Positions 2,577 to 23,650 of a DNA stretch of 64,000 nt are shown piece after piece (positions within the stretch are counted from its first letter, which is position 1; each line of letters opens with the position of its first letter). The DNA comes from Pontibacter populi (GTDB lineage Bacteria > Bacteroidota > Bacteroidia > Cytophagales > Hymenobacteraceae): the NCBI RefSeq assembly GCF_019336435.1, contig NZ_JAHWXQ010000001.1:992001-1056000 (forward strand). Reading direction: 5' to 3'. Below the pieces are notes generated by a model that worked only from the letters and a program-made list of their open reading frames with translations, made no database searches and was not told where the DNA came from. The position numbers and the translations under genes are program-made.

Positions 2577-2583
2577 TTTTAAA

Positions 2584-4917: not shown

Positions 4918-4971
4918 TAGTTATTTTGTAATAGTCTATATAGTATTCATCCTATATTTTAAATCAAGGTG

Positions 4972-5206: not shown

Positions 5207-5235
5207 AAAATATGCTACGAAAAAATTAAGTACAG

Positions 5236-5844: not shown

Positions 5845-5951
5845 AGTTTTAGTTTACGCAATAGTTTTTTCAGACCGCAGAACTTAATAAAACAGAAAAG
5901 CTGCTTCGCCGGAAAAGGGACTAATAAATGTATGGATTCGGCAACCTATAG

Positions 5952-6458
5952 TTACAGCGGAAGCAACGCCAGCAATGCATTTATAGTATACGGCGGACTC
6001 GCAACTAGGTGCTTTGCCTGCTCATAAAACCGGCGTCTTTCTGATAATGTTTTGCCTAAGAACGAGATTAATTGAGATTGTGTTTTGCCAGCCAGCAAAG
6101 GACGGGCAGATAGGTCTGATTGTGAGAGTCTTTGGGCTATTAAATTTACCGGCACATCCAGAAAAATGGTCTCACCGGCAGTGTTCATCAATGTCATGTT
6201 ACCGAAAAAGCATGGGGTGCCGCCGCCAGTAGCAACTATAGCTTGTTTATAGTTGGCAACTATAGTTTGCAAAGCCCTCCGCTCTACCTCCCGAAACCTC
6301 TCCTGCCCTTCTGCGGCAAATATTTCAGCTATAGTTCTGTTCTCACTCTGCTCAATAACCGCATCCAGATCCAGGAAAGTATAGCCCAGCTTTTCTGCCA
6401 GTTCCCTGCCCAGCGTGCTTTTGCCGCTACCCATCATACCTGTTAAGAAAATTAGCAT
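5952..6458 (-). CDS. aroK: Shikimate kinase
   Basis: Phosphorylates shikimate with ATP, the fifth step of the chorismate pathway, in the cytosol. The 168-aa protein is of usual length. The P-loop GMMGSGKST is at residues 7-15, the shikimate-binding DLD at about 31-33, the VATGGG motif at about 74-79, and the lid with RPLL near residue 118. The coding end contains a TATAGTA near-motif and the 5' third holds an AACTATAGTT palindrome (6258-6267). Upstream lies an AATTAGAAATT repeat pair. Confidence 0.95.
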   Translation of the reverse strand: MLIFLTGMMGSGKSTLGRELAEKLGYTFLDLDAVIEQSENRTIAEIFAAEGQERFREVERRALQTIVANYKQAIVATGGGTPCFFGNMTLMNTAGETIFLDVPVNLIAQRLSQSDLSARPLLAGKTQSQLISFLGKTLSERRRFYEQAKHLVASPPYTINALLALLPL

Positions 6459-6465
6459 TTTCTTT

Positions 6466-6556
6466 AAATTAGAAATTATGAATTAGAAATTATGAATTGG
6501 TGGTATGTAATGAGGCTTAAGATCATTTCTAACTTCTAATTTTTAATTTCTAATTA
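6466..6556. repeat. AATTAGAAATTATG repeat pair
   Basis: AATTAGAAATTATG appears twice in tandem at about 6468-6497, and AATTTCTAATT in opposite orientation at about 6545-6555, so the segment between aroK and the permease gene can form a long A/T-rich hairpin. I take it to be one of the low-complexity intergenic repeat types common in this phylum. Confidence 0.55.
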
Positions 6557-6569
6557 GCATAGCGCAGCG

Positions 6570-7631
6570 TTAATCCAGCTTCACGCGTGGATCGAGGGCG
6601 GCGTAAAGCAGATCTACAAAGATATTGATGACCACAAACAGGAACGCTACAAACAAGGTGGCACCCATTACCAGCGGAAAGTCGAGATTTTGAACAGCCT
6701 GTATAGTTACTGCGCCCAGGCCTTTCCAGTTAAAGATGTATTCGATAAAGAAGGCGCCGGCCATAAGCGAAGCCATCCAGCCAGACGCTGCTGTAACTAC
6801 TGGGTTAAGGGCATTTTTAAGAGCATGCCCAACTATAACGTTGCTTCTGTTAAGTCCCTTGGCGCGGGCCGTACGAATGTAATCCTGCGACATCACATCG
6901 AGCATAGAACTACGCGTTAGCTGAACTATAACTGCCAACGGACGAATACCCAAGGCAAAAGCTGGAAGCAGCAAGTTACGCAACATCAGCTCTTTTCCTT
7001 CGAAAGGGTCAATCTCGTATAGTTGGCCGGTCAGGCTCAGCCCGGTCCAGTCGCTCCAGTAAAAACCGAATGTAATGGCGATAAGAATAGCTGCTACAAA
7101 AGACGGCACTGAAATGCCTAATACGGATGTGGTGATAAGCGTATGGTCTAAGGTACTATGCGGTTTGAGCGAGGCCAGCACCCCGAAAAGGATACCGAAT
7201 ATCGTAGCAATAAGCATGGCAGAAACAGCCAACCATAACGTGCCCGGAAAATGATCTAATAGGATATCGGTTACAGATTTATTACTCTGGAACGAGCGGC
7301 GCAAATAAGGCGTTTTCCAGACCAGCACATCTTCGCCAAAATCAACTATAGTATTGTATTCATACTTCTGTTGGTTAGCCTCTGTATCTTCGTGCACCGA
7401 CAACGGCGACACATCATTGATATAGTACAGCAGCTGCGCGGGCAATGGCTTATCCAAGCCAAGGTCCTTGGTAATGGCTTCACGGGTGCTCAGGTCGGAA
7501 CGCTGGCCGGCCAGCATCGCCACCGGGTCGCCGGGCAGCACATTGAAAAGGAAAAATACCACCACCAACACACCCAGCATGATCAGCAGGCCGTGCCCCA
7601 TTCGGCTAAGTATAAATCCTATGAATTTCAT
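6570..7631 (-). CDS. Oligopeptide/dipeptide-type ABC transporter permease
   Basis: Inner-membrane permease of a peptide/nickel-type ABC importer or exporter (DppB/OppB family). The 353-aa protein starts with the typical helix and FNVLPGDPVAMLAGQR motif, has a long periplasmic loop (about residues 45-130), then five helices and the ATPase-contact EAA-type loop YIRTARAKGLNRSNVI. The C-terminus LYAALDPRVKLD is standard. No partner permease, ATPase or binding protein is in the window, so the other subunits must be encoded elsewhere. The downstream neighbour aroK is functionally unrelated. Confidence 0.9.
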   Translation of the reverse strand: MKFIGFILSRMGHGLLIMLGVLVVVFFLFNVLPGDPVAMLAGQRSDLSTREAITKDLGLDKPLPAQLLYYINDVSPLSVHEDTEANQQKYEYNTIVDFGEDVLVWKTPYLRRSFQSNKSVTDILLDHFPGTLWLAVSAMLIATIFGILFGVLASLKPHSTLDHTLITTSVLGISVPSFVAAILIAITFGFYWSDWTGLSLTGQLYEIDPFEGKELMLRNLLLPAFALGIRPLAVIVQLTRSSMLDVMSQDYIRTARAKGLNRSNVIVGHALKNALNPVVTAASGWMASLMAGAFFIEYIFNWKGLGAVTIQAVQNLDFPLVMGATLFVAFLFVVINIFVDLLYAALDPRVKLD

Positions 7632-7644
7632 TTAACTATATATT

Positions 7645-8289
7645 TTAAGATACCCAAAGTTGCACGTTGTCGACAATCTTCCAACGCCCGTTCACTTTTT
7701 CAAAACCTATCAATTCTCCTTTACCACACTTTCCACCACAGTAGAATTCATAATACAAAACTCCCTTATCCAGCTGTTTATTCCATCGCATCTCAGAGAA
7801 ACTTACTTGCCCTATTGCATTTACTTTCTGTTCAGCTTTTAATTCATACAAGTTTTCAGCCTTACCTAAAGAATCAACTTTAAAAGTACATGCCTGAAAA
7901 TCTGAGACCCAATACTTTTGCTGTGCTTCACTTAAATCTGCAAAGATGGCGGCGTTGTCTAAATCATACTTTGCAAGTAACGGCCTTATTTCATCATTTA
8001 CACCAGGAGCCGGAGCCTTCCATAAACCAATTTTAAACTCTTCGAAAAGCTCTTTGTGATAGCTTTTGTGGCTTAAATAAATTGTTTTAAAACTAGTAGT
8101 ATCTGTGCTGCCCTCACCGAAACTCAAACTATAGAATTTCCCTTCAACTAATTCAATTAGTAAGTCATTATAGACCTGTAGCTGTGGATCATCAGTTTTA
8201 TATTCACATACTGAAGTTTCTGCGACCTTCTCTTTACAAGACAGAAGCAGAAAGCTCAACAAAACAAATACAAACCAATTCCTCATCAA
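7645..8289 (-). CDS. Hypothetical lipoprotein, 214 aa
   Basis: A lipoprotein signal peptide (WFVFVLLSFLLLSC, lipobox Cys at residue 18) is followed by about 195 soluble residues with no recognised domain. The C-terminal part (GVLYYEFYCGGKCGKGEL...NGRWKIVDNVQLWVS) contains two nearby cysteines and an NTF2-like-looking end (GRWKIVD), which is only suggestive. The gene is visibly more A/T-rich than its neighbours and ends 13 bp before the permease gene starts, so co-transcription is possible. A REP-like palindrome lies just upstream. Confidence 0.7.
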   Translation of the reverse strand: MMRNWFVFVLLSFLLLSCKEKVAETSVCEYKTDDPQLQVYNDLLIELVEGKFYSLSFGEGSTDTTSFKTIYLSHKSYHKELFEEFKIGLWKAPAPGVNDEIRPLLAKYDLDNAAIFADLSEAQQKYWVSDFQACTFKVDSLGKAENLYELKAEQKVNAIGQVSFSEMRWNKQLDKGVLYYEFYCGGKCGKGELIGFEKVNGRWKIVDNVQLWVS

Positions 8290-8324
8290 TTACCTACTAT
8301 CTATTTTAGCAACTATAGTTTATC

Positions 8325-8395
8325 GTTGTCATTTCGAGTGCAGCGAGAAATCTGTCTCAAATACTAAATAGATCTCTCCTTTCGTTGAGATGACA
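8325..8395. repeat. REP-like palindromic element, copy 1
   Basis: GTTGTCATTTCGAGTGCAGC at the left and TCGTTGAGATGACAC at the right are imperfect inverted repeats around GAGAAATCT/AGATCTCTC. A second copy in inverted orientation lies at 10070-10142, and partial copies at 17663-17692, 36530-36570, 58220-58248 and 58611-58643. It lies between the 214-aa lipoprotein gene and the DoxX gene. An exact AACTATAGTT (8311-8320) abuts it. Confidence 0.7.
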
Positions 8396-8412
8396 CTATT
8401 GAGTAACAACCA

Positions 8413-9510
8413 CTACTTAGCAAGCGCAGCCTTTACTTCGTCTATAGTTGGTGTGTTGTTGTGGTGCCACAGGCCTTTGGTGGTTCCGTCTTTCAGTAGC
8501 CAGATACCCGGGTTGGAGCGAATAATGGTTTTTAGTACCGTATGGTCGCCAAAGTAGTAAGGAGCGGCCAGGTTTACTTCGTGGCGGAAAGCCTCAAACT
8601 CCTGCGCGCCGCTGCTGGTAATAACAATCGGCGTGATGCCCTCCTTCTCAGCTGCAGCCACTAAAGCGTTTATTCTTTCAAAATTATCGGTGTTTGCTTT
8701 GGTAACGTTATGCACAACTATAACCAGTTTGGTACCAGTTAGTACTTCCTGCGTGTGGTCGCCTTCGTCGTTCCAAACGTTAAAATCAGTAATCTTCGGG
8801 CCATCTTCCGGGTTAATAGCCACCATCTCTTTAAAAGTCCAGGTAGTGTCGGTCGGGTATTCTGTGAACACCTGCTCCTGGCCGCCTTTGGTCATAATAT
8901 ACTTATACTTCAGCGGTGCCGATGGCTTCATGAGCGTCGGGATGTTGTTACCGATCTTATAAGCGCGGAAGTCGATGTAAGGAAGATTTTCGTAAGCGTA
9001 CCAGCCAATGCCTACTGATAGTATAGCGGTAAGCGCGGTTATAGTTGCCCCAACTTTCTGGCTAATAAATGGCTGCAGGTAACGCTGTGTGATCAGCAAC
9101 ACAACGATCATCACAAGCAGCACGATGTCCTTGGTAAACGACTCCCAAGGGGTTAGTTTAATGGCATCGCCGAAGCATCCGCAGTCGGTCACTTTGTTGA
9201 AATAGGCTGAATAGAACGTGAGGAAGGTGAAGAATACGATCATAGCTAGCAATAGCCACAGCACTTCTTTCAGTTTCCAGCGAACGAGCAGTGCTACGCC
9301 CAGCACAATCTCCAGCGCACTCAGGAAAATAGAGAGAAACAACGCAGCCGGCTTCAGGGAGCTAAAGAACGGCGCAATGTCTGTCGAGAAAACTTCGAAA
9401 TACTCTTCCAGTTTAATAGCGGTGCCTACCGGGTCGTTTATCTTGATCAACCCAGAAAAGATGAACAGCACGCCCACAAAGAGCCAGAAGAATTTGGTGA
9501 TGTATTTCAT
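8413..9510 (-). CDS. DoxX/MauE-like membrane protein with thioredoxin-like C-terminus (BT_3928-like)
   Basis: Membrane protein of 365 aa. The first about 145 residues form a four-helix DoxX/MauE-type domain with the cysteine motif DCGCFGD, as in methylamine-utilisation MauE. A further helix at about 160-175 is followed by a soluble thioredoxin-fold-like region (VHNVTKANTDNFERINALV...PIVITSSG) that lacks a CxxC pair. In Bacteroidota this family usually sits beside DUF1599 and folP genes, and here both follow upstream. A role in envelope redox is inferred only. The gene contains several AACTATA half-sites. Confidence 0.82.
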   Translation of the reverse strand: MKYITKFFWLFVGVLFIFSGLIKINDPVGTAIKLEEYFEVFSTDIAPFFSSLKPAALFLSIFLSALEIVLGVALLVRWKLKEVLWLLLAMIVFFTFLTFYSAYFNKVTDCGCFGDAIKLTPWESFTKDIVLLVMIVVLLITQRYLQPFISQKVGATITALTAILSVGIGWYAYENLPYIDFRAYKIGNNIPTLMKPSAPLKYKYIMTKGGQEQVFTEYPTDTTWTFKEMVAINPEDGPKITDFNVWNDEGDHTQEVLTGTKLVIVVHNVTKANTDNFERINALVAAAEKEGITPIVITSSGAQEFEAFRHEVNLAAPYYFGDHTVLKTIIRSNPGIWLLKDGTTKGLWHHNNTPTIDEVKAALAK

Positions 9511-9583
9511 GGTTCTGCTTTCAGTTAGAAAGTTAATTGGTTTATAGTTGTGTGGTTACTTCCTTGTTAAAGATGGGGCAAGA

Positions 9584-10015
9584 CTATAGTAGCATTACCT
9601 TTTGTTTTCTCTTCTCCATTAAAATTAGAGCAACTGGTATTCCTACAATGATAAAATTGCTAAGTATTATGAGCAACCTTTTACTTAAAACATATCTATA
9701 GTCACTTATCACGAACTCCATTATAGTTGATCCCAATAAGTAAGCAATAAGGGTATATAAGAAAATATCATATGCTCTCTTATGCTTAATTATTACCGAC
9801 CCACCACCTATTATAAATAGAAGACAAACAAAAAGCGATATATATAAGTCAGCCATTTCTAGAGCTAAAAAGTCAGCAGGTATGTAATTAGCTCCTATCA
9901 ACCATGGTCTTTGAAGATAATCAACATAAATTGATGAATAGATTGTGACTATACCCATAAGCATGTAAACCCAAGCAAATAGTTTAATAAATAACTTAGT
10001 ATAGTTTTTCATCAT
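9584..10015 (-). CDS. Hypothetical four-helix membrane protein, 143 aa
   Basis: Four hydrophobic segments (about residues 8-28, 53-74, 84-103, 116-136) and a basic tail (MEKRKQKVMLL). I do not recognise the family. The gene is A/T-rich compared with its neighbours and separates the DoxX gene from DUF1599, two genes that are often adjacent in the phylum. It is bracketed at a distance by the two inverted REP-like copies (8325-8395 and 10070-10142). It could be a recent insertion. Confidence 0.65.
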   Translation of the reverse strand: MMKNYTKLFIKLFAWVYMLMGIVTIYSSIYVDYLQRPWLIGANYIPADFLALEMADLYISLFVCLLFIIGGGSVIIKHKRAYDIFLYTLIAYLLGSTIMEFVISDYRYVLSKRLLIILSNFIIVGIPVALILMEKRKQKVMLL

Positions 10016-10069
10016 TGCTTTCTTATAAAACTAAAGTAGTTACGTACTTGGAATAACCATAAAACACCT

Positions 10070-10142
10070 TGTCATCTCGAACAAGGTGAGAGATCTATCT
10101 CGAATTCTATATAGATTTCTCGCTGTACTCGAAATGACAACA
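10070..10142. repeat. REP-like palindromic element, copy 2 (inverted)
   Basis: Read on the minus strand it gives GTTGTCATTTCGAGTACAGC followed by GAGAAATCT, nearly identical to copy 1 at 8325-8395. The other arm is GATCTCTC...TCGAGATGACA. The two full copies therefore form an inverted pair about 1.75 kb apart. Confidence 0.7.
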
Positions 10143-10205
10143 TGAGAAAGCAACTATAATTCCCAACTACAGCAGCAAACTATAGAACCCAACCTATATA
10201 AACTA

Positions 10206-10757
10206 CTACACCTTCTCCGCAGCACCCAGCTTTATCAGCGCGAAAACGGCGTAGTTGATCATGTCGCGATAGTTGGCTTCTACTCCTTCCGAAATCAGCG
10301 TCTGGCCTTCGTTATCTTCTATCTGCTTGGTGCGGTATAGTTTCATCAGGATAATGTCGGTGATGGAGCTGACACGCATATCGCGCCAGGCTTCGCCGTA
10401 ATCGTGGTTTTTGGCCGTAAGCAGCTTTATGTTCTCTTCGATGTGGTGCGTGTACTGGCGCTCTACTTCATCGGCTGGCAAGGTTTGCTCGGCATCGGCT
10501 GGCAGGCTAAGCTGCATCAGGGCAATTACGCAGTAGTTTATAATGCCTACAAACTCGTCGCGGATGTCGTCTTCCACCAGTTGCTTGCCTTTTTCCTGGA
10601 TAGAGCGGATGCGCTGCGCCTTGATAAAGATCTGATCGGTAATAGAAGGTAGCCGGAGCACGCGCCAGGCCGTGCCATAGTCTTTCGTCTTTTTAACAAA
10701 AGTATCTTTGCAGCGCTGTACTACCTGATTATATTCCTGGAGTGTTTGACTAATCAA
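10206..10757 (-). CDS. DUF1599 protein with internal duplication
   Basis: Cytosolic 183-aa protein made of two copies of one helical unit. Copy 1 (about residues 8-85) reads KTKDYGTAWRVLRLPSITDQ and later IINYCVIALMQL. Copy 2 (about 100-180) reads KNHDYGEAWRDMRVSSITDI and later MINYAVFALIKL. This is DUF1599, also described as a nucleotide-modification-associated domain, of unknown biochemical role. It is divergent from folP with only 35 bp between start codons. The folP-DUF1599-DoxX neighbourhood is common in Bacteroidota. Confidence 0.88.
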   Translation of the reverse strand: MISQTLQEYNQVVQRCKDTFVKKTKDYGTAWRVLRLPSITDQIFIKAQRIRSIQEKGKQLVEDDIRDEFVGIINYCVIALMQLSLPADAEQTLPADEVERQYTHHIEENIKLLTAKNHDYGEAWRDMRVSSITDIILMKLYRTKQIEDNEGQTLISEGVEANYRDMINYAVFALIKLGAAEKV

Positions 10758-10792
10758 CTTTTTAGCTTTAATTTTAAAATCAATAGACCTAA

Positions 10793-11659
10793 ATGCCTAC
10801 ATTGGATTCGAAAGATACGCTTTTTAAGAAAAAATCCACACTCAATTGCCGCGGAAAGCTACTCTCTCTGGACACGCCGCTGGTAATGGGCATTCTCAAC
10901 CTTACCCCCGATTCTTTTTACCCCGGCAGCCGCCTGAACTCCGCCGAAGAAGCCGTTGAACGTGCGCGCATTATGCTCTCTGAGGGTGCCGATATATTGG
11001 ATATTGGCGGTTACTCTACCCGTCCCGGCGCAGCAGATATTTCGTCTCAGGAAGAACAGGATCGGTTGATACCAGCCATCGAAGCTATAGTTAAGGAATT
11101 TCCGGATGTAGTACTTTCTGTGGATACGTTCCGTGCTGATGTAGCCGAAGCAACTATAAATGCCGGCGCAGCTATAGTTAACGATGTAGCAGGCGGCACG
11201 TTGGATGACAACATGTTTGAAACCGTGGCCCGGCTGCAGGTTCCGTACATTTTAATGCACATGCGCGGCACGCCAAAAACTATGCAGACTTTGGCCAACT
11301 ATAGCAATGTAACTATAGAAGTGCTGGACGAACTGCAGCTACAGGTGGCTAAACTTACGAAGCTCGGTGTGAATGATATCATACTTGATCCGGGGTTTGG
11401 CTTTGCAAAAACAACAGAACATAATTTTGAATTACTGAACCGTCTGGAAGATTTCCGTATATTGGGTTTACCTGTGCTGGCGGGCATGTCGCGCAAATCG
11501 ATGGTTTACAAAACGCTGGGCATTCACCAGACCGACGCCTTAACCGGAACGATTGTTGTGAACACGATTGCGCTGATGAAAGGGGCCGCTATTTTGCGCG
11601 TGCACGACGTAAAAGAAACTAAGCAGGCTGTAGAACTTTACAAGAAAACAATACTTTGA
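10793..11659 (+). CDS. folP: Dihydropteroate synthase
   Basis: Condenses 4-aminobenzoate with hydroxymethyl-dihydropterin pyrophosphate in folate synthesis. At 288 aa it is a full TIM barrel. Family signatures: MGILNLTPDSF near residue 34, GGYSTRPGA near 66, SVDTFRADVAEA near 103, NDVAGG near 125, ILDPGFGFAKT near 193, and GMSRKSM near 227. It overlaps the next gene cdaA by 4 bp (TTGA), so the pair is translationally coupled. The gene has at least five AACTATA/TATAGTT sites, encoding EAIV, AIVN, ATIN, NYSN and VTIE. Confidence 0.96.
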   Translation: MPTLDSKDTLFKKKSTLNCRGKLLSLDTPLVMGILNLTPDSFYPGSRLNSAEEAVERARIMLSEGADILDIGGYSTRPGAADISSQEEQDRLIPAIEAIVKEFPDVVLSVDTFRADVAEATINAGAAIVNDVAGGTLDDNMFETVARLQVPYILMHMRGTPKTMQTLANYSNVTIEVLDELQLQVAKLTKLGVNDIILDPGFGFAKTTEHNFELLNRLEDFRILGLPVLAGMSRKSMVYKTLGIHQTDALTGTIVVNTIALMKGAAILRVHDVKETKQAVELYKKTIL

Positions 11660-12495
11660 CATTCTTATTCACGATAGGGTTTTTAGAGATCGAGCTGCTG
11701 GATATTATTGATATTCTGCTTGTAACGGCCCTGCTATACCAACTATACAAGCTGCTTACCGGTAGCGTTGCCCTTAAGATCTTCTTAGGCCTGCTATCTA
11801 TTTACCTGCTGTACCTGGTGGTACGTGCCGCCGGCATGGAGCTGCTCAGTATTATTCTGGGCCAGTTTATGGGCGTGGGTGTGCTGGCTGCCATTATCCT
11901 TTTCCAGCCCGAAATCCGTCGTTTCCTGTTGATGATCGGCAAAACCACGGCCCTTAACCACGAGCGTTTCTGGGGTTTCCCGTGGCGCCGCGACACAACC
12001 GAAAAGCTTAGCCTGACGCCCTTTATAGAAGCCGCAAAATCATTGGCCGCAAAAAACACCGGTGCCCTCATTGTTTTCGCGAAGAGCTCCGAACTGAAAT
12101 ACTATGCCGAGTCAGGGGATTTGATTGATGCCGTTATTTCGAAGCGCTTGCTGATGTCGATCTTTAACAAGAACAGCCCGCTGCACGATGGTGCCGTGAT
12201 TATTGCCAATAACCGCATCAAAGCGGCCCGCTGTATTCTCCCAGTCTCTGAGAACCAGGAAATTCCGGCTTCAATGGGCCTCCGTCACCGCGCAGCCATC
12301 GGCTTAACTGAGATCACAGATAGTATTGTTTTGGTTGTTTCGGAAGAGACGGGGCAGGTAGCACTAGTGCGTAACGGCGAAGCTTTCCGTAACCTTTCAT
12401 CCGCAGACCTTCGCGTTAAACTTAACCAGTTCCTGTTCGACACCGATCAGCGACCAACTATAAGCCCTTCCGAAAAATCGGTCAGTGCTGCCTAG
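11656..12495 (+). CDS. cdaA: Diadenylate cyclase CdaA
   Basis: Makes cyclic di-AMP from two ATP, membrane-bound. Three N-terminal helices (about residues 5-95) precede a DisA_N catalytic domain with PLHDGAVII (DGA motif, about 175-183) and MGLRHRAAIG (RHR motif, about 206-215). It starts with TTG inside the folP stop (TTGA overlap). That start is favoured because the N-terminal helix would otherwise be cut and the operon spacing fits. The last 10-15 residues (RPTISPSEKSVSAA) are a variable tail containing an AACTATA site. Confidence 0.94.
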   Translation: MTFLFTIGFLEIELLDIIDILLVTALLYQLYKLLTGSVALKIFLGLLSIYLLYLVVRAAGMELLSIILGQFMGVGVLAAIILFQPEIRRFLLMIGKTTALNHERFWGFPWRRDTTEKLSLTPFIEAAKSLAAKNTGALIVFAKSSELKYYAESGDLIDAVISKRLLMSIFNKNSPLHDGAVIIANNRIKAARCILPVSENQEIPASMGLRHRAAIGLTEITDSIVLVVSEETGQVALVRNGEAFRNLSSADLRVKLNQFLFDTDQRPTISPSEKSVSAA

Positions 12496-13076: not shown

Positions 13077-14273
13077 TTACTTAATCACACCCAGCTCTCT
13101 ACCAACTTCGGTAAAGGCAGCGATACACTTATCGATATGCACACGGTCGTGCACGGCAGATAGCTGAACACGGATACGTGCCTGGCCTTTTGGTACAACA
13201 GGGAAATAGAAGCCAATTACGTAAATACCTTTGTCCAGCATACGGGCTGCAAATTCCTGGGCTAGTGGCGCATCGTATAACATTACCGGAACGATCGGGT
13301 GTTCGCCTGGCTTAATATCGAAACCGGCTGCAGTTATCTGCTCACGGAAATATCTGGTGTTCCACTCCAGTTTATCGCGCAGCTCGGTGGTAGAGCTCAG
13401 CATATCCAAAACAGCAATAGACGCACCAACTATAGAAGGCGCCAGTGAGTTAGAGAACAGGTAAGGACGCGAACGCTGGCGCAGCATATCAATCACCTCT
13501 TTGTGGCCTGATGTAAAACCGCCCATCGCACCACCAAGCGCTTTGCCGAGTGTACCAGTAATGATATCAATCTTACCCATTACATTGTGGTACTCGTGCA
13601 CGCCGCGGCCGGTCTTACCCATAAAACCAGTTGAGTGCGAATCATCCACCATGATCAGGGCTTTGTACTTATCAGCCAGCTCCACAATCTTATCCAACTG
13701 GGCAACTGTACCATCCATCGAGAACGAACCGTCAGTAACAATGATGCGGTGTTTGGTATTGGCATTTACAGCTTCCTGCAGTTTTGCTTCCAGGTCGGCC
13801 ATGTCGTTGTGCTCGTAACGGAAACGTTGCGCCTTGCATAAACGCACGCCATCAATAATAGACGCATGGTTCAGAGCATCTGAAATAATAGCCGAATCCG
13901 CATCAAACAATGGCTCGAAAACGCCCCCGTTCGCATCAAAAGCAGCTGCGTAAAGAATTGTATCTTCAGTACCTAAGAACTCAGATATCTTGCGCTCCAG
14001 CTCTTTGTGAATATCCTGTGTACCGCAGATAAAACGTACCGAGCTCATGCCATAGCCATGTGTATCAATGGCCTCTTTGGCAGCTTCGATCACTTTCGGG
14101 TGAGCAGAAAGGCCTAGGTAGTTGTTGGCGCAAAAGTTAAGTACATGCGGCTGCTGCGTGGTGTCAATGTCAGCGCCCTGCGGTGTAGTTATAATGCGCT
14201 CTTGCTTATATAGTCCGGCAGCCTTTATTTCTTCCAGCTGTTTTTCCAGGTCAGGTTTTAAGGTTTCGTACAT
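13077..14273 (-). CDS. kbl: Glycine C-acetyltransferase (2-amino-3-ketobutyrate CoA ligase)
   Basis: PLP enzyme that splits 2-amino-3-ketobutyrate with CoA into glycine and acetyl-CoA, the second step of threonine breakdown. The 398-aa length is normal. Signatures: [14 protein letters not shown] near residue 46, [12 protein letters not shown] near 75, [15 protein letters not shown] near 210, and the PLP lysine in [13 protein letters not shown] near 243. Alpha-oxoamine synthases also include serine palmitoyltransferase, which the phylum has. The nearby SDR-type threonine dehydrogenase supports the kbl call. Confidence 0.93.
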
Positions 14274-14317: not shown

Positions 14318-15502
14318 TTATAGTTCGGTATCTGGCTTAGGTGGAGGCCTTTTGATAATTGGTCTCGGACGCCCCGGCTTTGGTTTTAAAGTTTCGTCGG
14401 CAGGCGCTTCCGGCTGCTCAGCTTTCGCTTCATCTATAGTTGGTGGAGCTGGTTCTTCCGGTTGTACATCAGCTATAGTTGGTTCTGCAGGGGGCACTGG
14501 CCGTTTTATAACAGGTCGTGGCCTTGGCGGTTTAGGCGCAGGCACAGGCTCCTCGGTCGTGTTTATAGTTGGTTGCTCCTCCGGCTTTTCTACTTCCGGC
14601 TTAGCTTCTTCAGTTGTAGGTTTCTGCAATGCAACCGGTCGCTTTATTACAGGCCGTGGGCGTGCAGGTTTTGCAGCTTCAGTATCTCCTGTAACTATAG
14701 TTGCTTCCGGATTTATAGTTTCACCTATATTATCTGCTGCTGGTTTTTCTGTTTCCGAAGGATTTTCATCCGTTGGTTTTTGTAATGCAGCCGGTCTTTT
14801 GATAACCGGTCTCGGTCGTGCGGCCGGTTTTGGTACTTCAGCTTCCGGAACTATAGTTGGCTCTGCAGGTTTGACGGTTTCAGTTTCTTCAATAGCAGGC
14901 TTCTGTAAAGCGGCAGGTCGCTTCATAACCGGCCGTGGCCTGGCTGGCGCACCACCTTCTGTTGCAGGTTTTTCTACAGAGTTTTCGCCTTCAATAGCTG
15001 CCGCAGGTTTAGAGATAACCGGTCGTTTTATTACTGGTCTGGGCTTGGCTGCTTCTGATGGTTTAACTTCCTCAGGGTCTATAGTTTCACCTTCGGTTAT
15101 AGTTGGCTTTGCTATAGTTGGGCGCTTTACTACAGGTCGCGGTTTAGGTGTAGGCGTAGTTTCTGCTGTTTCCTGTGGAACGGCTGGCTGAGCTGTTTCA
15201 CTTATTTCAGTAGCCGGCGCGGCACGACGCATCACTGGCCGTGGAGCAGCTGGTACAGGGGCAGTTTTTTGAATATCCTCTTCTGCCAGGTGATACCGTA
15301 ACCGCACATCATTAATTACCATTTTAGTGGCAATGTAAAAGCTGTTCTGGTGCATTTGGTCGTACATATCGGCCCATGCAGCAAAGCGCGCGGGGTTACC
15401 GGCGGCAAATGCAGCTTTATTGATGCGCTTCTTTACAAGGTATTCTTCAAATGTCATGCCCTGACCTTCTGGTAATATCTCTACAAATATAGGTAAATCC
15501 AC
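14318..15502 (-). CDS. Proline-rich repeat protein with eight PRPVIKRP units
   Basis: 394 aa without signal peptide or membrane helix. Residues 1 to about 80 form a compact domain (LPIFVEILPEGQGMTFEEYL, AGNPARFAAWADMYDQMHQN). The rest is low-complexity sequence with eight copies of a basic-proline motif, PRPV(I/M/V)KRP and variants (first PRPVMRRAA, last PRPIIKRPPPK), spaced 25-45 residues apart by acidic linkers rich in E, T and P. Many linkers contain PTI or ETI because AACTATA sites are built into the gene, at least nine of them. I do not know the function. Alternating basic and acidic segments suggest an extended binding scaffold. It is 44 bp from kbl on the same strand. Confidence 0.8.
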   Translation of the reverse strand: MDLPIFVEILPEGQGMTFEEYLVKKRINKAAFAAGNPARFAAWADMYDQMHQNSFYIATKMVINDVRLRYHLAEEDIQKTAPVPAAPRPVMRRAAPATEISETAQPAVPQETAETTPTPKPRPVVKRPTIAKPTITEGETIDPEEVKPSEAAKPRPVIKRPVISKPAAAIEGENSVEKPATEGGAPARPRPVMKRPAALQKPAIEETETVKPAEPTIVPEAEVPKPAARPRPVIKRPAALQKPTDENPSETEKPAADNIGETINPEATIVTGDTEAAKPARPRPVIKRPVALQKPTTEEAKPEVEKPEEQPTINTTEEPVPAPKPPRPRPVIKRPVPPAEPTIADVQPEEPAPPTIDEAKAEQPEAPADETLKPKPGRPRPIIKRPPPKPDTEL

Positions 15503-15676: not shown

Positions 15677-15789
15677 GCATTTAAGCCATAATCTGCTGGC
15701 TAAAAATCACAAGCGGCTGTGTTTGTTATAAGTTATGCTTTCAGGATTGCACCGAAATAAGTTACTTTGTGCAAACGACTTTAGTAACT

Positions 15790-16764
15790 ATGGCAAACAC
15801 TAGCGACACGGTACTGGTAATAGGTTCGAGCGGCCAGCTTGGCTCCGAACTGACAATGGAGCTTCGTAATATGTATGGCGGAAGTAATGTGGTGGCGGCA
15901 GATATTGCAGCACCCAAACATGCCGACCTGCGCGACTCCGGACCTTTTGAGAAAATAGATGTGCTGGACCCAAAAGCAATGGGCGAACTGGCAGCAAAGT
16001 ATAAATTCAAGCAGATCTATCACCTGGCAGCTGTGTTGTCGGCCACTGGCGAAAAGAATCCGAAATTTGCCTGGAAACTGAACATGGACGGCCTGTTTAA
16101 CGTGCTGGACCTTGCCCTGGAGCAGAAAGTGGAGAAAATTTACTGGCCAAGCTCTATTGCCGTTTTCGGCCCGAACACGCCACGTCAGAATACCCCGCAG
16201 CATACCATCATGGACCCAAACACAGTTTATGGTATCAGCAAGCAGGCCGGTGAGCGCTGGTGCGAATATTATTTCGAAAAGTATGGACTGGATGTGCGTA
16301 GCCTACGTTACCCCGGCCTTATTGGCTACAAAGCCCTACCAGGTGGCGGTACCACAGATTATGCCGTAGATATTTACCACCAGGCACTGGAAAGCGCCAG
16401 CTACGAATGCTTCCTGAGCGAAAACACTTACCTGCCGATGATGTACATGCCGGATGCCCTGAAAGCTACACTGGACCTGATGCATGCCCCGGCGGAGCAG
16501 GTAAAAGTACGCAGCTCGTATAACCTGAGCGCTATGAGCTTCTCTCCTAAAGAGATTACTGAGTCCATCAAAAAGCATATCCCGGAATTCGTGATCAGCT
16601 ATAAGCCGGACTCACGCCAGCAGATTGCCGACTCGTGGCCACAAAGCATAGACGATAGCGCCGCACAACAAGACTGGAACTGGAAGCCAGCCTACGACCT
16701 GGATGCTATGACTGCTGATATGTTGTTGAATCTGAAAAAGATGAAAGAAGAACAGGCTGTATAA
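15790..16764 (+). CDS. tdh: NAD-dependent epimerase-type L-threonine 3-dehydrogenase
   Basis: Short-chain (extended SDR) threonine dehydrogenase that oxidises threonine to 2-amino-3-ketobutyrate, feeding kbl. 324 aa from the ATG at 15790; a GTG 21 bp upstream is less likely. Signatures: VIGSSGQLGSEL near the N-terminus (NAD binding), PSSIAVFGP, and the catalytic YGISKQAGERW (Tyr and Lys). The C-terminal half has MYMPDALKATLDLMHAP, typical of this subgroup rather than of GalE. It is divergent from kbl with the repeat protein between. A terminator follows. Confidence 0.9.
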   Translation: MANTSDTVLVIGSSGQLGSELTMELRNMYGGSNVVAADIAAPKHADLRDSGPFEKIDVLDPKAMGELAAKYKFKQIYHLAAVLSATGEKNPKFAWKLNMDGLFNVLDLALEQKVEKIYWPSSIAVFGPNTPRQNTPQHTIMDPNTVYGISKQAGERWCEYYFEKYGLDVRSLRYPGLIGYKALPGGGTTDYAVDIYHQALESASYECFLSENTYLPMMYMPDALKATLDLMHAPAEQVKVRSSYNLSAMSFSPKEITESIKKHIPEFVISYKPDSRQQIADSWPQSIDDSAAQQDWNWKPAYDLDAMTADMLLNLKKMKEEQAV

Positions 16765-16786
16765 GTTTGTGAACTATAGATTAAAG

Positions 16787-16817
16787 AAAGGCGATGCAGC
16801 AATGTATCGCCTTTTTT
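16787..16817 (+). terminator. Terminator of tdh
   Basis: AAAGGCGAT, ten-base loop, ATCGCCTTTTTT, 23 bp after the tdh stop. Confidence 0.8.
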
Positions 16818-16849
16818 GTTTTGTCTAAATTAGAATTTGCAGGATTTAG

Positions 16850-17293
16850 CTATAGTTGTGATGATGGTTTTATAGTTAACCATTTTGCTGGCGCGAGCGT
16901 CCTCGCTCGTGACTTACTATGGCGTTGAGTCTCCTGACTCAATTGGCCCGATAGGGACGGGAATTGTCTGAATCAGGATTTACAGGATTAATAGATTTTC
17001 AGGACTGGCCTTATGCTATAGTTGGAGTTAATGTTTTATAGTTGCTGTTGGTCCAACCACCCCCAGTCCCTCCTTGTCCAAGGCGGGGAGCTTTAAGCCT
17101 TTGCTATAGTTTGCCCCGTAGTATTATAGTTGCGGGTTTAACCCACCCCTGCCCCTCCCGAGAGGGGAGTTTCTGCTGTTGCTATAGTAGAGGCTATCAG
17201 TTTTATAGTTAACACTTTAACACCCTTTAGTCCCCTCAAGGAGACAATTGCTGGCTTTACTAGTTTCTAAACTATAGTTCCATAGTTACACAC
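16850..17293 (+). repeat. Repeat island 1, upstream modules
   Basis: A gene-free stretch made of short repeat modules separated by TATAGTT/AACTATA sites. Module A (16887-16960) has hairpin CGAGCG/CGCTCG and ends GGCCCGATAGGGAC. Module B (about 16965-17000) is CTGAATCAGGATTTACAGG. Module C (17051-17099) is TCCAACCACCCCC...GGCGGGGAGCTTTA. Module D (17140-17180) is ACCCACCCCTGCCCCTCCCG plus AGAGGGGA. Module E (17218-17248) is a diverged CACCCCT...GGGGACT type. Counterparts are at 36900-37130 (inverted) and 57890-58260. No coding potential is seen. Confidence 0.8.
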
Positions 17294-17294
17294 C

Positions 17295-17586
17295 ACGAGC
17301 AGGGCAGGTTTACCTGTTCCTACGAAAATATCCTCACGATCAATCTCGAAGCTTCCCTATTCAACCTATAGATGCTGGTTGCTATGCGAAACTTCACAGT
17401 CTTTGGGTTGAGCGCCTTTGACTTGTTGCGGTGGCGCAGCCAACCCGAGGCACGAGGGTAGCAAGAAGGCAGCAGCGCAATGCCCGAAGACGGGGCCTCC
17501 CGGCCGTGAGGGCACCAAAGCTGGTTTGAAACGATAGGTTACTAGAGCTCTCAGGATTGAAAGTGGCTTGAAAGGATGGCTTGGCA
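17295..17586 (+). ncRNA. 292-bp repeated element F, copy 1 (candidate structured RNA)
   Basis: Shared with 36608-36899 (minus) and 58268-58562 (plus). Order of parts: hairpin around CAGGTTTACCTG; GATGCTGGTTGCTATGCGAA; the invariant CAGTCTTTGGGTTGAGCGCC (17397-17416); a variable segment with hairpin TGGC-gca-GCCA (17432-17442); an almost invariant 39-bp core starting GCCCGAAGACGGGGC (17482-17520), itself able to form two G/C hairpins; then GAGCTCTCAGGATTGAAAGT. The stem changes in a compensated way between copies. No reading frame is kept in all three, so RNA or a mobile repeat fits better than protein. Confidence 0.55.
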
Positions 17587-17662
17587 TAAGTTGCAACTAT
17601 AGCACATCAGACGCTAGTAGGAGCTGCGCACGCTGCTAGGTCTTCGTCAACTATAAGACATA

Positions 17663-17692
17663 TAAGATCCCTCAGTTTCACTCGGGATGACA
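17663..17692 (+). repeat. REP-like fragment after element F copy 1
   Basis: AGATCCCTCAGTTTCACTCG plus GGATGACA resembles one arm of the REP-like elements at 8325 and 10070. Elements F copies 2 and 3 are followed by a related arm (36530-36570, 58611-58643), so it seems to be part of the island. Confidence 0.5.
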
Positions 17693-17786
17693 GTAAAGCT
17701 TTACGGCACTATTCCAACCTCCCCTCTGTTACGAAAGCTAAAACTATACTAACTTGCGCTGCAATTTCAGAAAACACTATAACCCT

Positions 17787-20165: not shown

Positions 20166-21128
20166 ATGGCTACTTATACTTTTAAAGATATATTTTCTCT
20201 TCTTAAATCTTCGGTTTCGGAATTTCTGGATAACGAATCGTTGCGACTGGCGGCAGCGCTGGCTTTTAATGCTATTTTCTCGATTCCACCCCTGCTCCTG
20301 ATCATTATAAAAGCGGCAGGTTTTTTTCTTGGGGAGGCAGCTATCTCCGGCGAACTTTCAAACCAGATATCATCCGCAATTGGCCCCGAAGCAGCTAAAG
20401 AAGTAGAAGCTATTGTTCAGAATGCGAGCTTAAGCGAAAGCGGATGGGCCCTCTGGGTTGGTATCGGCACGTTGCTGTTTGCAGGCACTACCTTTTTTGT
20501 AACACTGCAACAATCACTGAACACGGTCTGGAACCTGAAAGTGAAGGCTACGAATGGCATTATGCGCATGGTAAAAGAGCGTATCTTTTCGTTCGGCATT
20601 ATTCTTAGCATTGCCTTGCTGATGCTTTTCTCGCTGGTGATGAGTGCGGCTATCTCTATTTTAAGCGGCTATATATCTGACATGATGCCCGGCATAGGTG
20701 TCTGGCTTATCAAACTCATCGATTTTATAGTTTCTGTAGGGCTGATCTCCCTGCTGTTCACCCTGATTTTCAAATACCTGCCTGATGGTATCATTCGCTG
20801 GAAAGACACGTTGATCGGTGCCGTTGTAACGGCTTTGTTGTTTGGCTTGGGTAAGTTCCTGATCAGCTGGTATATCGGCACTTCAGACCCGGGTTCGGCT
20901 TACGGGGCAGCAGGCTCTATTATCGTTATCCTTGTCTGGATCTATTATTCGTCGATGATCGTGTTTTACGGCGCTGAATTTACCCAGCAATACGCTGAGC
21001 GCTACGGTCAGCATATCCGCCCAAAACCACACGCCGTTTTTGTGCGCATTGTCGAAGAAACATCCGATAAAGCTGATAAAGCCAGCGGCAGACCAAAACC
21101 AGAAGGCAGGTATAATAAGAATCCGTAA
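20166..21128 (+). CDS. YihY/BrkB family membrane protein
   Basis: Inner-membrane protein of the YihY (formerly RNase BN/BrkB) family, of unclear role. From ATG 20166 it has 320 aa; the GTG start 72 bp upstream is unlikely. Features: LRLAAALAFNAIFSIPPLLL at the first helix, GTTFFVTLQQSLNTVWNLK, five to six helices, and the conserved DPGSAYGAAGSIIVILVWIY YSSMIVFYGAEFTQQYA near the C-terminus, split here for readability. A hydrophilic, lysine-rich tail follows. A good terminator lies at 21132. Confidence 0.92.
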   Translation: MATYTFKDIFSLLKSSVSEFLDNESLRLAAALAFNAIFSIPPLLLIIIKAAGFFLGEAAISGELSNQISSAIGPEAAKEVEAIVQNASLSESGWALWVGIGTLLFAGTTFFVTLQQSLNTVWNLKVKATNGIMRMVKERIFSFGIILSIALLMLFSLVMSAAISILSGYISDMMPGIGVWLIKLIDFIVSVGLISLLFTLIFKYLPDGIIRWKDTLIGAVVTALLFGLGKFLISWYIGTSDPGSAYGAAGSIIVILVWIYYSSMIVFYGAEFTQQYAERYGQHIRPKPHAVFVRIVEETSDKADKASGRPKPEGRYNKNP

Positions 21129-21131
21129 GTT

Positions 21132-21163
21132 AAAAGGGCCTGCTAAGTATAGCAGGCCCTTTT
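21132..21163 (+). terminator. Terminator of yihY, shared with the convergent gene
   Basis: AAAAGGGCCTGCTA, AGTA, TAGCAGGCCCTTTT, a 14-bp perfect stem. Confidence 0.85.
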
Positions 21164-21188
21164 AACTTCTATACTTTTATAAACAGTA

Positions 21189-22436
21189 TTAGAAAGCCAT
21201 TCCAAGCAAAACAGAAGAAATGTTATTCTTCTGAATAAATCCTATGCCTGCAGATAAGCCATGATTTCTTTCCTGACGAAGTTCCAACGAAAGTGATCTT
21301 TTACCGAAAGCTTCTGTCTTAATACCTAACCCGCCAATAAAGCCTAGTTCTATTTCTCTATAGTCTGGCATAATATCGAACTCATAGTTGTTTTCCTGTG
21401 CGCCAAACTTACCGTATCGCTTTACATTAGAGTCGGCACTTAATAAAAAGCCTGCTTGTGCACCCGCATTTATATAAGCTCTGAATTTACCTTTTGGCCA
21501 GGTATACCGGATCATGGCCGGCACTTTTATATGCTTTGCTTCCAGATAATAGTCGTAGGTATAGTATGAACCTCCGGCGTAATCTTTTTTGTATTTGCCC
21601 TCAACCCTGTATTGCTGATACATAACACCAGTGTAAAGGCTTAATTTATTGCTCAGTTTAGCGGCTGTGATATTAAAAGCAATACCTCCTGTTACATCTA
21701 ACGATGGGGTGATATCTCCTTTGGTTGCGTAGTCATCGACGCTCTGGCTTGAAGAGAATGTTGCATTTGTATATGTCCCCCCAACTATGATCAACTTCTC
21801 AACTTTCGTTTTCACGTCGTCTTCGGTTCTTGCAACCTGAACCTGTGCTGGAGCAATGCATGCATTATACTTATTTACCACCTTTATCATATCAGATTGC
21901 TCAAGCCGCGCCTTTTCAATCAATGGTTGTACTTCGGCACACGCATTAAGCACAGAGGTTAACATCCCAACATATGGCTTCAGTGTGACATTGTATATTT
22001 TACCGTTTCCTTTATCAACACGTCTGCTTTCCTGAATCAACTCATGTATGCGCCCATCATTTGTAGTTACAAAAAAGCGCTCTTTCACACCATCATGTTT
22101 CATAAAATATAAGGTGGCAGCCCCCTTTGCCAATACTTCCATAAAGTAAGTCTGACTTATCTTATCTGCACTTACAATAGTTATACTTTCATACTGCTTG
22201 TCATCAGCTAGACCATAACCTATAATTTGTGATGGGTTATAGACTATTGGCTGAGTATCATTACTTGTTTAAAAAGCAACCTGCAAAGCAGCATTAGAAT
22301 TTGTGCCTCGGTAATCTATCAGGCCATTTGTACGACTGCTGTCTGTAGTAAGAATATATCCTGGTTTAAAATTGGCTTGTGCTAAGGCCGAAACAGAGAA
22401 GGTCAATGTGAGAAGGGTAATGTAAAATTGTTTCAT
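21189..22436 (-). pseudogene. Outer-membrane beta-barrel-type protein gene interrupted by one stop codon
   Basis: A single frame runs from ATG at 22436 to the stop at 21189 (416 codons), broken only by TAA at 22269-22271. The first part encodes a good signal peptide (MKQFYITLLTLTFSVSALA) and QANFKPGYILTTDSSRTNG LIDYRG, the usual start of a Bacteroidota family. The frame continues in register after the stop (TQPIVYNPSQIIGYGLADDK) into the 317-aa remainder ending in a beta-barrel-like domain (GGLGIKTEAFG...LSLELRQERNHGLS). A lysine is expected at the stop position, so AAA to TAA is the simplest event. It could be a true pseudogene, a sequencing error or a recoded gene. Confidence 0.8.
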
Positions 22437-22519
22437 TAAAATTTAAAAAAATAATTGATTGTAAATTTAGGCGCGCAAGGTAGGCAAATGTTATTCCTAA
22501 TAAAATGACGATAAAACAG

Positions 22520-22555
22520 AAAAGCCTTTTTATATTACTATAAAAAGGCTTTTTG
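22520..22555 (-). terminator. Terminator of rlmN
   Basis: AAAAGCCTTTTTATA, TTAC, TATAAAAAGGCTTTTT: a long perfect stem just past the rlmN stop. Confidence 0.8.
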
Positions 22556-22576
22556 CTATATAGGTAAGGTGTATAC

Positions 22577-23650
22577 TTACACCGTCTGCTTCTCTTTTAC
22601 GGCCAATTGTCCGCAGGCTGCATCAATATCTTTACCACGACTACGGCGGACGTTTACCTGGCAACCACGATCTGCTAAGTAGTAAATAAAGTTCTGCAAA
22701 CGGTCGTCATCGGTATTCACGAAATCAGCGTTGGCAATCGGGTTATACTCTATCAGGTTGATCTTGCAAGGAATAATTTTTGAGAACTGCAGCAGTTCTT
22801 CAGCATCCTGCAGGGTATCGTTAAAGTTATCGAATACAATGTACTCGTATGTTACCTTGCGGCCTGTAACCTGGTGATAATGCTTCAGGGCATCTTTAAT
22901 GGCTTCAAGCGAGTTGGTCTCGTTTATTGGCATGATTTGGTTACGCTTCTCATCGTTAGCTGCGTGCAACGATAGAGCCAGGTTCGCCTTCACACCATCA
23001 TCAGCCATCTTCTTGATCATTTTGGCAATGCCCGCTGTACTTACCGTAATGCGGCGCGCGGCCATGCCCAGTCCATCGTGCGCAGTTATACGCTCAATGC
23101 TCTTCATCACGTTGGCATAGTTCAGCATTGGTTCGCCCATGCCCATATACACAATGTTGGTAAGTGGTTGCCCGTACTGGCGAAGGCTTTGCTCGTTTAT
23201 GCGCACTACCTGGTCATAGATTTCGGCAGCATCGAGGTTACGAACGCGGTCCATGTAGCCGGTAGCGCAGAATTTGCAGGTAAGTGAGCAACCCACCTGG
23301 CTACTCACGCAGGCTGTTTTGCGCTCATCATGCGGTATCAGTACGCCTTCTACAATGTTACTGTCGTATAGTTTGAACGCAGATTTTATAGTTCCGTCGT
23401 TGCTCAGCTGCTCTGTGGCAACCTGCACCGCATTAATAGCAAAGTGCTGCTCCAGCTTTTCGCGCAGGGCAAGGCTTACATTGTTCATCTCCGCAAACGA
23501 CTGGATAGAGTGCTTCCAGAGCCACTCATAGATCTGCTTGGCACGGAAAGGCTTCTCGCCCTGCTCTACCAACCAGGCCTTCAGGTCGTCCAGCGTAAGC
23601 TTACGGATGTCTTTTTTATTAAGAATCGGAATATCTGCGATCAACGTCAT
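22577..23650 (-). CDS. rlmN: 23S rRNA (adenine2503-C2)-methyltransferase / tRNA A37 methylase
   Basis: Radical-SAM enzyme that methylates C2 of A2503 in 23S rRNA and A37 in some tRNAs. At 357 aa it has the normal length. The [4Fe-4S] motif CSLTCKFC is at about residues 121-128, MGMGEPMLNY binds SAM, and the catalytic C-terminal cysteine is in DIDAACGQLA. The N-terminal helical accessory domain (LVEQGEKPFRAKQIYEWLWK) is present. A thioesterase gene ends 21 bp upstream, so co-transcription is likely. Confidence 0.97.
   Translation of the reverse strand: MTLIADIPILNKKDIRKLTLDDLKAWLVEQGEKPFRAKQIYEWLWKHSIQSFAEMNNVSLALREKLEQHFAINAVQVATEQLSNDGTIKSAFKLYDSNIVEGVLIPHDERKTACVSSQVGCSLTCKFCATGYMDRVRNLDAAEIYDQVVRINEQSLRQYGQPLTNIVYMGMGEPMLNYANVMKSIERITAHDGLGMAARRITVSTAGIAKMIKKMADDGVKANLALSLHAANDEKRNQIMPINETNSLEAIKDALKHYHQVTGRKVTYEYIVFDNFNDTLQDAEELLQFSKIIPCKINLIEYNPIANADFVNTDDDRLQNFIYYLADRGCQVNVRRSRGKDIDAACGQLAVKEKQTV

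Follow-up and report, generated by a model that had tools for sequence, protein, structure and literature searches.

The repeat-protein gene and its motif sites

The gene considered here lies on the reverse strand at positions 14318–15502, as first called, of a window of 64,000 nucleotides (the whole stretch of DNA that was analysed) in the Pontibacter populi genome G000. It encodes basic-proline repeat units separated by acidic linkers, and its coding sequence is interspersed with the seven-base word AACTATA (TATAGTT on the other strand), which is iterated throughout the genome. We have very little doubt that a force acting on the DNA, and not selection on the protein, writes the repetitive tail. 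The gene contains 12 overlapping matches to the word at 10 distinct places, two being the palindrome AACTATAGTT (Table 1). Nine of these places encode Thr-Ile (TI), in the frame xxA.ACT.ATA, in agreement with a sequence-only reading of the window that had counted at least nine sites coding PTI or ETI. At the tenth the word overlaps the stop codon, and such overlaps recur at other gene ends: of 374 mechanically called open reading frames (ORFs) in 464 kb, 10 have AACTATAA close to their terminus.

The matches are confined to the tail, with none in the N-terminal 240 bp and all 12 in the 900-bp remainder. From codon 81 to the stop, the density reaches 13.3 matches per kb compared with an intergenic mean of 8.3 per kb, and in motif density the tail behaves like intergenic DNA. 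Encoding the same protein with the codon usage of the genome gave an expectation of 0.29 tail matches, and none of 2000 draws produced more than 3; the actual tail has 11 when the stop codon is left aside. Ranked by density, the gene comes first among the 176 ORFs that span ≥900 bp and fifth among 361 mechanical ORFs of the 464 kb. The four denser ORFs all lie outside the window, and the gene is indeed the densest ORF of the window, as had been proposed.

The start codon required a correction. The GTG at 15502, from which the gene had been read, is not conserved, and the orthologues begin at a Met equivalent to that at 15457 (52 of 52; 50 by pattern and two, G005 and G106, by separate comparison). 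They were found in all 50 congeners searched and in two of five genomes from other genera of the family. The protein itself has no sequence match in Pfam, NCBIfam or PDB. The N-terminal part was modeled by AlphaFold2 as four helices with a block pLDDT of 88–92 across residues 1–50; the predicted folded domain is present, although it comprises about 58–60 residues rather than 80. Comparison of its fold with the PDB returned nothing at E≤0.001 (the best hit, E 8.4, is not usable). We detected the domain in eight of 14 genomes from other families of the order, and at the four such loci with a delimited ORF (L026, L027, L029, and L030) it constitutes a stand-alone protein of 60–67 residues. None of three such peptides scanned reached the Pfam cut-off, and neither of two scanned matched NCBIfam.

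The tail carries eight PRPxx(K/R)R units; the KRP ending ascribed to all of them holds for seven, the first unit reading PRPVMRRA. The unit number ranges from five to nine among the 50 congeners and is seven or eight within the clade rich in AACTATA described below. It thus varies between orthologues, each species being represented by one genome, but the motif does not track it. Unit expansion as the source of the motif was rejected in view of these numbers and because the sites sit between the units. Of the two flanking genes, each with a homologue at the locus in 52 of 52 genomes, the aminotransferase gene lies outside the motif system; we take its product to be of the 2-amino-3-ketobutyrate CoA ligase (kbl) type, and the epimerase-family protein presumably resembles the epimerase-type threonine dehydrogenase (TDH). 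At five loci from other families, both neighbours were present at one and the epimerase gene alone at another.

Table 1. Positions in the window of the repeat-protein gene, its parts, its motif sites and its neighbours.
Feature	Position	Strand	Remark
CDS of repeat protein, 379 aa, start ATG 15457	14318..15457	-	start is the orthologue-conserved Met
N-terminal domain of ~58 residues, all-helical, motif-free	15284..15457	-	alignment of 30 sequences and AlphaFold2
Low-constraint tail, basic-proline units and acidic linkers	14321..15217	-	
Repeat unit 1, PRPVMRRA	15221..15244	-	degenerate
Repeat unit 2, PRPVVKRP	15119..15142	-	
Repeat unit 3, PRPVIKRP	15020..15043	-	
Repeat unit 4, PRPVMKRP	14915..14938	-	
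Repeat unit 5, PRPVIKRP	14792..14815	-	
Repeat unit 6, PRPVIKRP	14636..14659	-	
Repeat unit 7, PRPVIKRP	14498..14521	-	
Repeat unit 8, PRPIIKRP	14345..14368	-	
Motif AACTATA	15113..15119	-	encodes TI
Motif AACTATA	15098..15104	-	encodes TI
Motif AACTATA	15080..15086	-	encodes TI (ETI)
Palindrome AACTATAGTT	14849..14858	-	encodes TIV
Motif AACTATA	14714..14720	-	encodes TI (ETI)
Palindrome AACTATAGTT	14693..14702	-	encodes TIV
Motif AACTATA	14564..14570	-	encodes TI
Motif AACTATA	14474..14480	-	encodes TI
Motif AACTATA	14435..14441	-	encodes TI
Tenth motif, gene end GAA CTA TAA	14319..14325	-	last sense codon and first two stop bases
Aminotransferase (Pfam Aminotran_1_2)	13077..14273	-	neighbour
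NAD-dependent epimerase-family protein (Pfam Epimerase)	15769..16764	+	neighbour

The word in the genome

The 4.30-Mb genome contains 12,640 copies of AACTATA (6,358 forward and 6,282 reverse), compared with 833 copies of the reversed control word; 219 of them lie in the window, where 10.9 are expected. This corresponds to an enrichment of about 15- to 20-fold and to about 2% of the genome (12,640 × 7 bp in 4.30 Mb). Over 464 kb, the full word is a sharply bounded 8-bp AACTATAR; position 8 is A or G, positions 9–10 are weakly biased, and elsewhere the information amounts to at most 0.08 bit per position. The mean gap between sites is 314 bp, the density across 46 bins ranges from 18 to 52 per 10 kb, and 13 motif-free gaps exceed 2 kb where an exponential distribution predicts 2.5. 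The longest of these include 449961–454241, 71289–74328, and 20726–23366.

The two strands are balanced over the 464 kb (707 forward and 768 reverse), and the difference takes no consistent sign across eleven 40-kb bins. This bears on the idea of a Chi-like, replication-polarity or segregation motif. Words of 5–8 bp are overrepresented in many genomes, as such an explanation would have it, but Chi and polarity motifs are strand-biased along the replichore. With the balance observed here, over about a tenth of the genome with replichores unmapped, we regard it as very improbable.

Sites are denser in intergenic (8.3 per kb) than in coding DNA (2.2 per kb), and densest in convergent intergenic regions (13.1 per kb), these densities being approximate as the ORFs were called mechanically. 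In tandem intergenic regions, 169 sites lie in one orientation and 184 in the other relative to the direction of transcription. Within ORFs, 575 sense sites face 301 antisense sites (464 kb), distributed over the frames as 349/148/79 in the sense and 223/66 in the antisense orientation, where one frame is barred by a stop codon. This sense bias can be explained by the permitted reading frames. TI is the commonest reading of coding matches (349 of 865), and the other frames give Asn-Tyr, Leu, Ile-Val, Tyr-Ser, or the barred stop. A function at the RNA level is disfavoured because the intergenic sites lack a sense bias; the word acts at the DNA level, filling sequence able to carry it. Among 38 ORFs of the window, motif density falls as protein conservation rises (Spearman −0.44, P 0.006), a trend carried by the seven ORFs at 70–80% identity, as those at 80–90% are no richer than those at ≥90%.

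As a separate observation, the intergenic region 16765–17760 harbours a motif cluster with three imperfect 29-nt copies at 16849, 17015, and 17103, which begin with GCTATAGTT and finish with TTATAGTT so that two motifs stand 20 bp apart. Other motif pairs with the same 20-bp spacing occur at 23367/23387 and 37047/37067.

Dialects across the genus and their imprint on proteins

We counted AACTATA in the whole genomes of 50 congeners, one genome per species. The word is abundant in seven of them (6,094–13,168 copies) and intermediate in G079 (3,531), while the other 42 contain 532–1,969 copies; in five further genera of the family, represented by 100 genomes, the word never exceeded 1.15 times the control word. 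Searching the relatives for enriched words yielded AAGTATAA, AGGTATAG, and, in one genome, ATATATA. Whole-genome counts of AAGTATA reach 4,114–11,818 in 20 congeners that do not belong to the AACTATA clade. AGGTATA reaches 5,748–9,303 copies in all 12 genomes of a third clade, as against 720–3,132 in 14 other congeners and 427 and 794 in two outgroups (28 genomes searched whole). ATATATA was found 127 times in 80 kb of G040, where 3.0 are expected (loci L109–L112, best 10-mer TTATATATAA), and is probably a further dialect word besides AACTATAR, AAGTATAA, and AGGTATAG. All dialect words keep a constant TATA core. Three members of the AACTATA clade are mixed: G070 contains 8,118 AACTATA and 7,552 AAGTATA, G092 6,094 and 9,116, and G055 11,674 and 5,110. 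At locus L148 of G133 (16.7 kb), we also observed GGTATAC 14 times against 0.8 expected and CCATACC 16 times against 1.7, with 3,132 AGGTATA genome-wide; these words possibly represent an additional dialect or one that is fading.

A phylogeny built on two neighbouring genes in 52 genomes recovers the AACTATA and the AGGTATA clades as monophyletic (ultrafast bootstrap, UFBoot, 99 and 100, respectively), although its backbone has weak nodes (43–60). AAGTATA is scattered over the remainder of the tree and is therefore probably the older word. A group without a strong word (G024, G007, G002, G120, G141, G065, and G143; support 85) suggests a loss, and G040, G133, G131, and G050 form a second group that lacks the three main words. 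For G024, G065, G120, G143, G050, G131, and G133, the state beyond the whole-counted words rests on 15–20 kb each. The classification fits less well for G007 and G002, which were placed among the species without a strong word despite 2,905 and 2,052 copies of AAGTATA against 723 and 832 of the control word. Taking these counts together with the tree, we are highly confident that the dialects are real and clade-coherent.

The same dialects reappear in the orthologues of the repeat gene. In the seven AACTATA genomes, 65 of 66 TI dipeptides are written as A.ACT.ATA. Outside the clade, the 45 orthologues contain 12 TI (three in G079 and two in G010), none motif-coded. In the 20 AAGTATA genomes, Ser-Ile (SI) is A.AGT.ATA in 32 of 34 cases, 15 genomes having at least one and five none, and Gly-Ile (GI) is A.GGT.ATA in six of six. 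In the 12 AGGTATA genomes, all 21 GI are A.GGT.ATA (in 10 genomes), while one of six SI is A.AGT.ATA. The orthologues of 11 other congeners and two outgroups contain no motif-coded TI, SI, or GI. Accommodated less well are five of the 20 AAGTATA and two of the 12 AGGTATA genomes, in which the tail holds no dialect word in the TI, SI, or GI frame, and linker alignment between the dialect groups is uncertain owing to insertions and deletions. Judged by its codons, the tail of the repeat protein appears to record which word each lineage uses, as TI, SI, or GI.

These counts decide against selection for Thr-Ile in the linkers with a codon bias that happens to give the word. All nine TI sites share one frame, here as in the orthologues, which such selection would explain. 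The shared frame also fits tolerance, TI being the commonest coding reading genome-wide, and the match count expected under genome codon usage falls far below that observed. Moreover, the TI outside the clade use other codons, the dipeptide follows the dialect, and intergenic DNA is denser in sites than coding DNA. We rejected this explanation on codons, expectation, and dialect counts, and consider it scarcely credible. The sequence-only reading had named orthologues with the same PTI and ETI in other codons as the observation that would speak for protein selection; the clade instead writes almost every TI with the motif. Its broader suggestion, of linkers assembled from motif copies that exemplify how the word spreads or is preserved under low constraint, is supported by the comparison of 52 orthologues and by the switch of the dipeptides with the dialect.

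An imprint extends to the proteome, as examined in 16 genomes (80 kb each, 400 kb for G000). TI is raised to 1.48–1.66 times the expectation in six genomes of the AACTATA clade, to 1.23 in the mixed G092 and to 1.21 in G079, against 1.03–1.11 in the other eight; in the ORFs of G000, 278 of 661 TI are motif-coded. The overall ratios of SI and GI are not dialect-specific: SI is raised (1.37–1.49) also in three non-AAGTATA genomes and GI stands at 1.29 in G141, which fits less well. For these dipeptides, the motif-coded share alone is specific, with 24–30 of 104–118 SI in G092, G079, G106, and G004 and with 27 of 121 and 30 of 141 GI in G010 and G016.

Gain, retention and the candidate agents

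To follow the fate of sites, we compared G000 with G111 at ungapped sites (88% identity over 384 kb); the control words differ between the analyses, namely the comparison of relatives, 104 permutations, and a reduced permutation set. Identical in G111 are 876 of 1145 motif sites, against 4143 of 7511 sites of the 104 permuted controls, some of which overlap the motif, and 3237 of 6144 once five overlapping or similar permutations are left out. The flanks of conserved sites are less identical than those of conserved controls (0.874 and 0.919), implying faster-evolving surroundings, yet the sites are more often kept. Motif codons resist synonymous change: retention inside and outside the motif is 250/277 and 698/1193 for ACT, 395/420 and 1380/1710 for ATA, 56/63 and 228/636 for CTA, 156/160 and 1430/1808 for TAT, 153/165 and 1142/1542 for GTT, 44/47 and 474/716 for AGT, and 106/108 and 2814/3258 for AAC. 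In comparisons with species that have no strong word, motif sites are retained less often than the controls (for G007, three of 73 compared with six of 23), which points to recent gains in G000.

Part of the sites arose by substitution in place. Among AAGTATA sites of relatives that differ by one base from G000 in the window, the change seen most often is G-to-C, which produces AACTATA in G000; its share is 16/31 in G092, 12/28 in G106, 12/26 in G004, 11/28 in G070, 9/29 in G079, 5/19 in G055, and 0/9 in G111. Overall, C:G accounts for 8–10% of differences in the four genomes for which this share was determined. At these sites, AAGTATA is replaced in place by AACTATA. One-base differences between G000 and G111 sites hit all seven positions, and repair of a single mismatch type (VSR-like) was rejected on that ground. 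Gapped counterparts of sites unique to one species are commoner than those of controls (67 of 336 and 392 of 3299 non-identical counterparts).

Retention of this kind also bears on the notion that a past burst of a mobile element or of slippage scattered the word, which has since been decaying. The word is present in some intergenic clusters of imperfect repeats, as a burst would leave it, but its 8-bp information boundary is sharp, no flanks are shared, and the sites are preserved above controls. Preservation together with in-place replacement is the opposite of decay, and we consider a burst extremely improbable. Mobile insertion was rejected on the unshared flanks.

We propose that a genome-wide, sequence-specific force at the DNA level adds and preserves the 8-bp AACTATAR wherever the encoded function permits. 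The disordered acid/proline linkers would be filled with the word because they tolerate almost any dipeptide, beyond the mean intergenic density and always in the Thr-Ile frame. During the Pontibacter radiation, the recognised word would have changed from AAGTATA to AACTATA in one clade and to AGGTATA in another, and with each change the same linkers would have been rewritten to Ser-Ile, Thr-Ile, or Gly-Ile. The force may be self-DNA recognition during uptake and recombination of conspecific DNA, through a receptor other than a type IV pilin. By analogy with known uptake sequences, we give a force based on uptake or recombination slightly less than an even chance. The fuller proposal is more tentative still: Pontibacter may possess an evolving self-DNA recognition, with uptake or recombination independent of type IV pili, whose receptor changed specificity at least two times, on each occasion rewriting thousands of sites along with the overlapping proteins.

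Several observations weigh against uptake. Conversion of AAGTATA accounts for only a minority of the AACTATA sites: among the 108 that could be aligned with G106, that genome has AAGTATA at 12 and AACTATA at four. Sites unique to one species show no excess of counterparts with multiple mismatches (≥2 against one mismatch, 119:150 compared with 1262:1645 for controls, P 0.80), unlike DNA uptake sequences (DUS) unique to one Neisseria genome, which reportedly are often too divergent to have arisen by point mutation (PMC2397512, in excerpt). A full ATPase of the type IV pilus or type II secretion system (T2SS; PF00437) was found in none of 27 genomes, which yielded only short P-loop-sized matches in a search that covered this ATPase family and not pilins or secretin. 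Of these partial matches, 26 fall below the cut-off and that of G092 lies just above it (60 positions, 25.9 vs 24.9 bits), while the control genomes were positive in 14 of 14 cases. Without a full PF00437 ATPase, the known receptor machine looks absent and membership among the DUS fails. A ComEC-family protein occurs in 27 of 27 genomes, which speaks for uptake, but species that have no strong word possess it just as well, and hence it does not explain the loss.

In the literature, the words AACTATA, AACTATAG, and CTATAGTT were not found in a search whose scope excluded most subscription journals. No paper joined Pontibacter with “uptake sequence,” and neither such a Pontibacter motif nor an established uptake sequence for the phylum appeared among the matches listed. 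Both Riemerella and Pontibacter belong to the Bacteroidota. Natural competence is reported for Riemerella, assigned by the same paper to the Flavobacteriaceae, and R. columbina favours DNA of its own kind, but an uptake word was not established there (PMC7965970).

Instead of uptake, an abundant nucleoid or chromosome-organising DNA-binding protein could keep the sites by direct selection, the dialects following changes in its DNA-contact residues. The strand-symmetric, genome-wide spread, the strong preservation, and dialects with a constant TATA core all suit such a protein. On the other hand, at every one of the more than 10,000 sites selection would have to be strong enough to fix rare G-to-C changes in place, and we know of no precedent for direct binding selection at such a site density. 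We consider this explanation unlikely.

Alternatively, an orphan DNA methyltransferase could mark the word, with methylation-directed mismatch repair making and maintaining it, as may hold for the highly iterated palindrome HIP1, and a change of target would create a new dialect. The density of HIP1 and the existence of “alternate HIPs” with matching methyltransferases offer a close precedent (PMC4390886, in excerpt), the density here is of HIP1 order, and PF07669-type matches occur in seven of seven AACTATA-clade genomes. HIPs are, however, palindromic, while the word here has A or G at position 8 and weak bias at positions 9–10; AACTATAGTT accounts for only 104 pairs among 1475 matches, and CAGGTATAGC is not a palindrome. 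PF01555 gave no match in G000, G111, G018, G135, and G092, nor PF02086 in G000, G111, G055, G070, and G092, in each case five of the seven clade genomes. The PF07669 matches lie in frames of 497–1334 residues, mostly weak and partial, with no length common to all seven. As ATATATA lacks cytosine, a cytosine methylase cannot serve that dialect. As a conserved methyltransferase for the word, none of the three families searched (PF01555, PF02086, and PF07669) clearly fits, PF00145, PF02384, and others being unsearched. The HIP1-like cause is weakened by these results, and we hold it to be distinctly unlikely.

For the uptake reading and its alternatives alike, the genus serves as a natural experiment in which the origin and switching of iterated genomic words, and their shaping of proteins, can be followed, with three well-counted dialect groups, mixed intermediates, probable losses, and one gene that reports the dialect. 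Should an uptake receptor prove to be the agent, both natural transformation and genetic isolation could be tested directly in Bacteroidota; should the agent be a methylase or a nucleoid protein, Pontibacter offers a tractable relative of the long-unexplained HIP class. Either way, part of the dipeptide and codon statistics of such genomes reflects a DNA word and not the protein.

Among known systems, Chi hotspots share with the word here the overrepresentation of a short asymmetric sequence, but differ in that we found no strand bias in 464 kb and an enrichment of about 15- to 20-fold. HIP1 and the alternate HIPs of cyanobacteria, whose function is unsettled, resemble it in the order of copy number, in alternate words among relatives, and in low frequency in other relatives (PMC4390886, in excerpt). 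Unlike HIP1, the word is non-palindromic, PF01555 and PF02086 are missing from most of the AACTATA clade, whose PF07669 matches are mostly weak and partial, and several related dialects with mixed intermediates coexist in one genus. The closest parallels are with the DUS of Neisseriaceae and the uptake signal sequences (USS) of Pasteurellaceae; by this analogy, the word would work like an uptake-sequence language, yet we do not class it as one. Unlike the DUS, it belongs to another phylum, shows no full type IV pilus ATPase and so no ComP-like pilin route, has no excess of unique sites with multiple mismatches, and is not strong in some Pontibacter species. Like DUS and USS, it is a short non-palindromic word with thousands of copies on both strands, and like the DUS it is permissive in location yet conserved above its surroundings (PMC2397512, in excerpt). 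Its clade-specific dialects surround a constant TATA core as the eight DUS dialects of Neisseriaceae surround CTG, and its genome share of about 2% falls between those of N. meningitidis (about 1%) and of one genome with kingDUS (2.5%) (PMC3630211, in excerpt). The mixed genomes G070, G092, and G055 likewise have a counterpart in Simonsiella muelleri, which carries two DUS dialects in near-equal numbers (PMC3630211, in excerpt).

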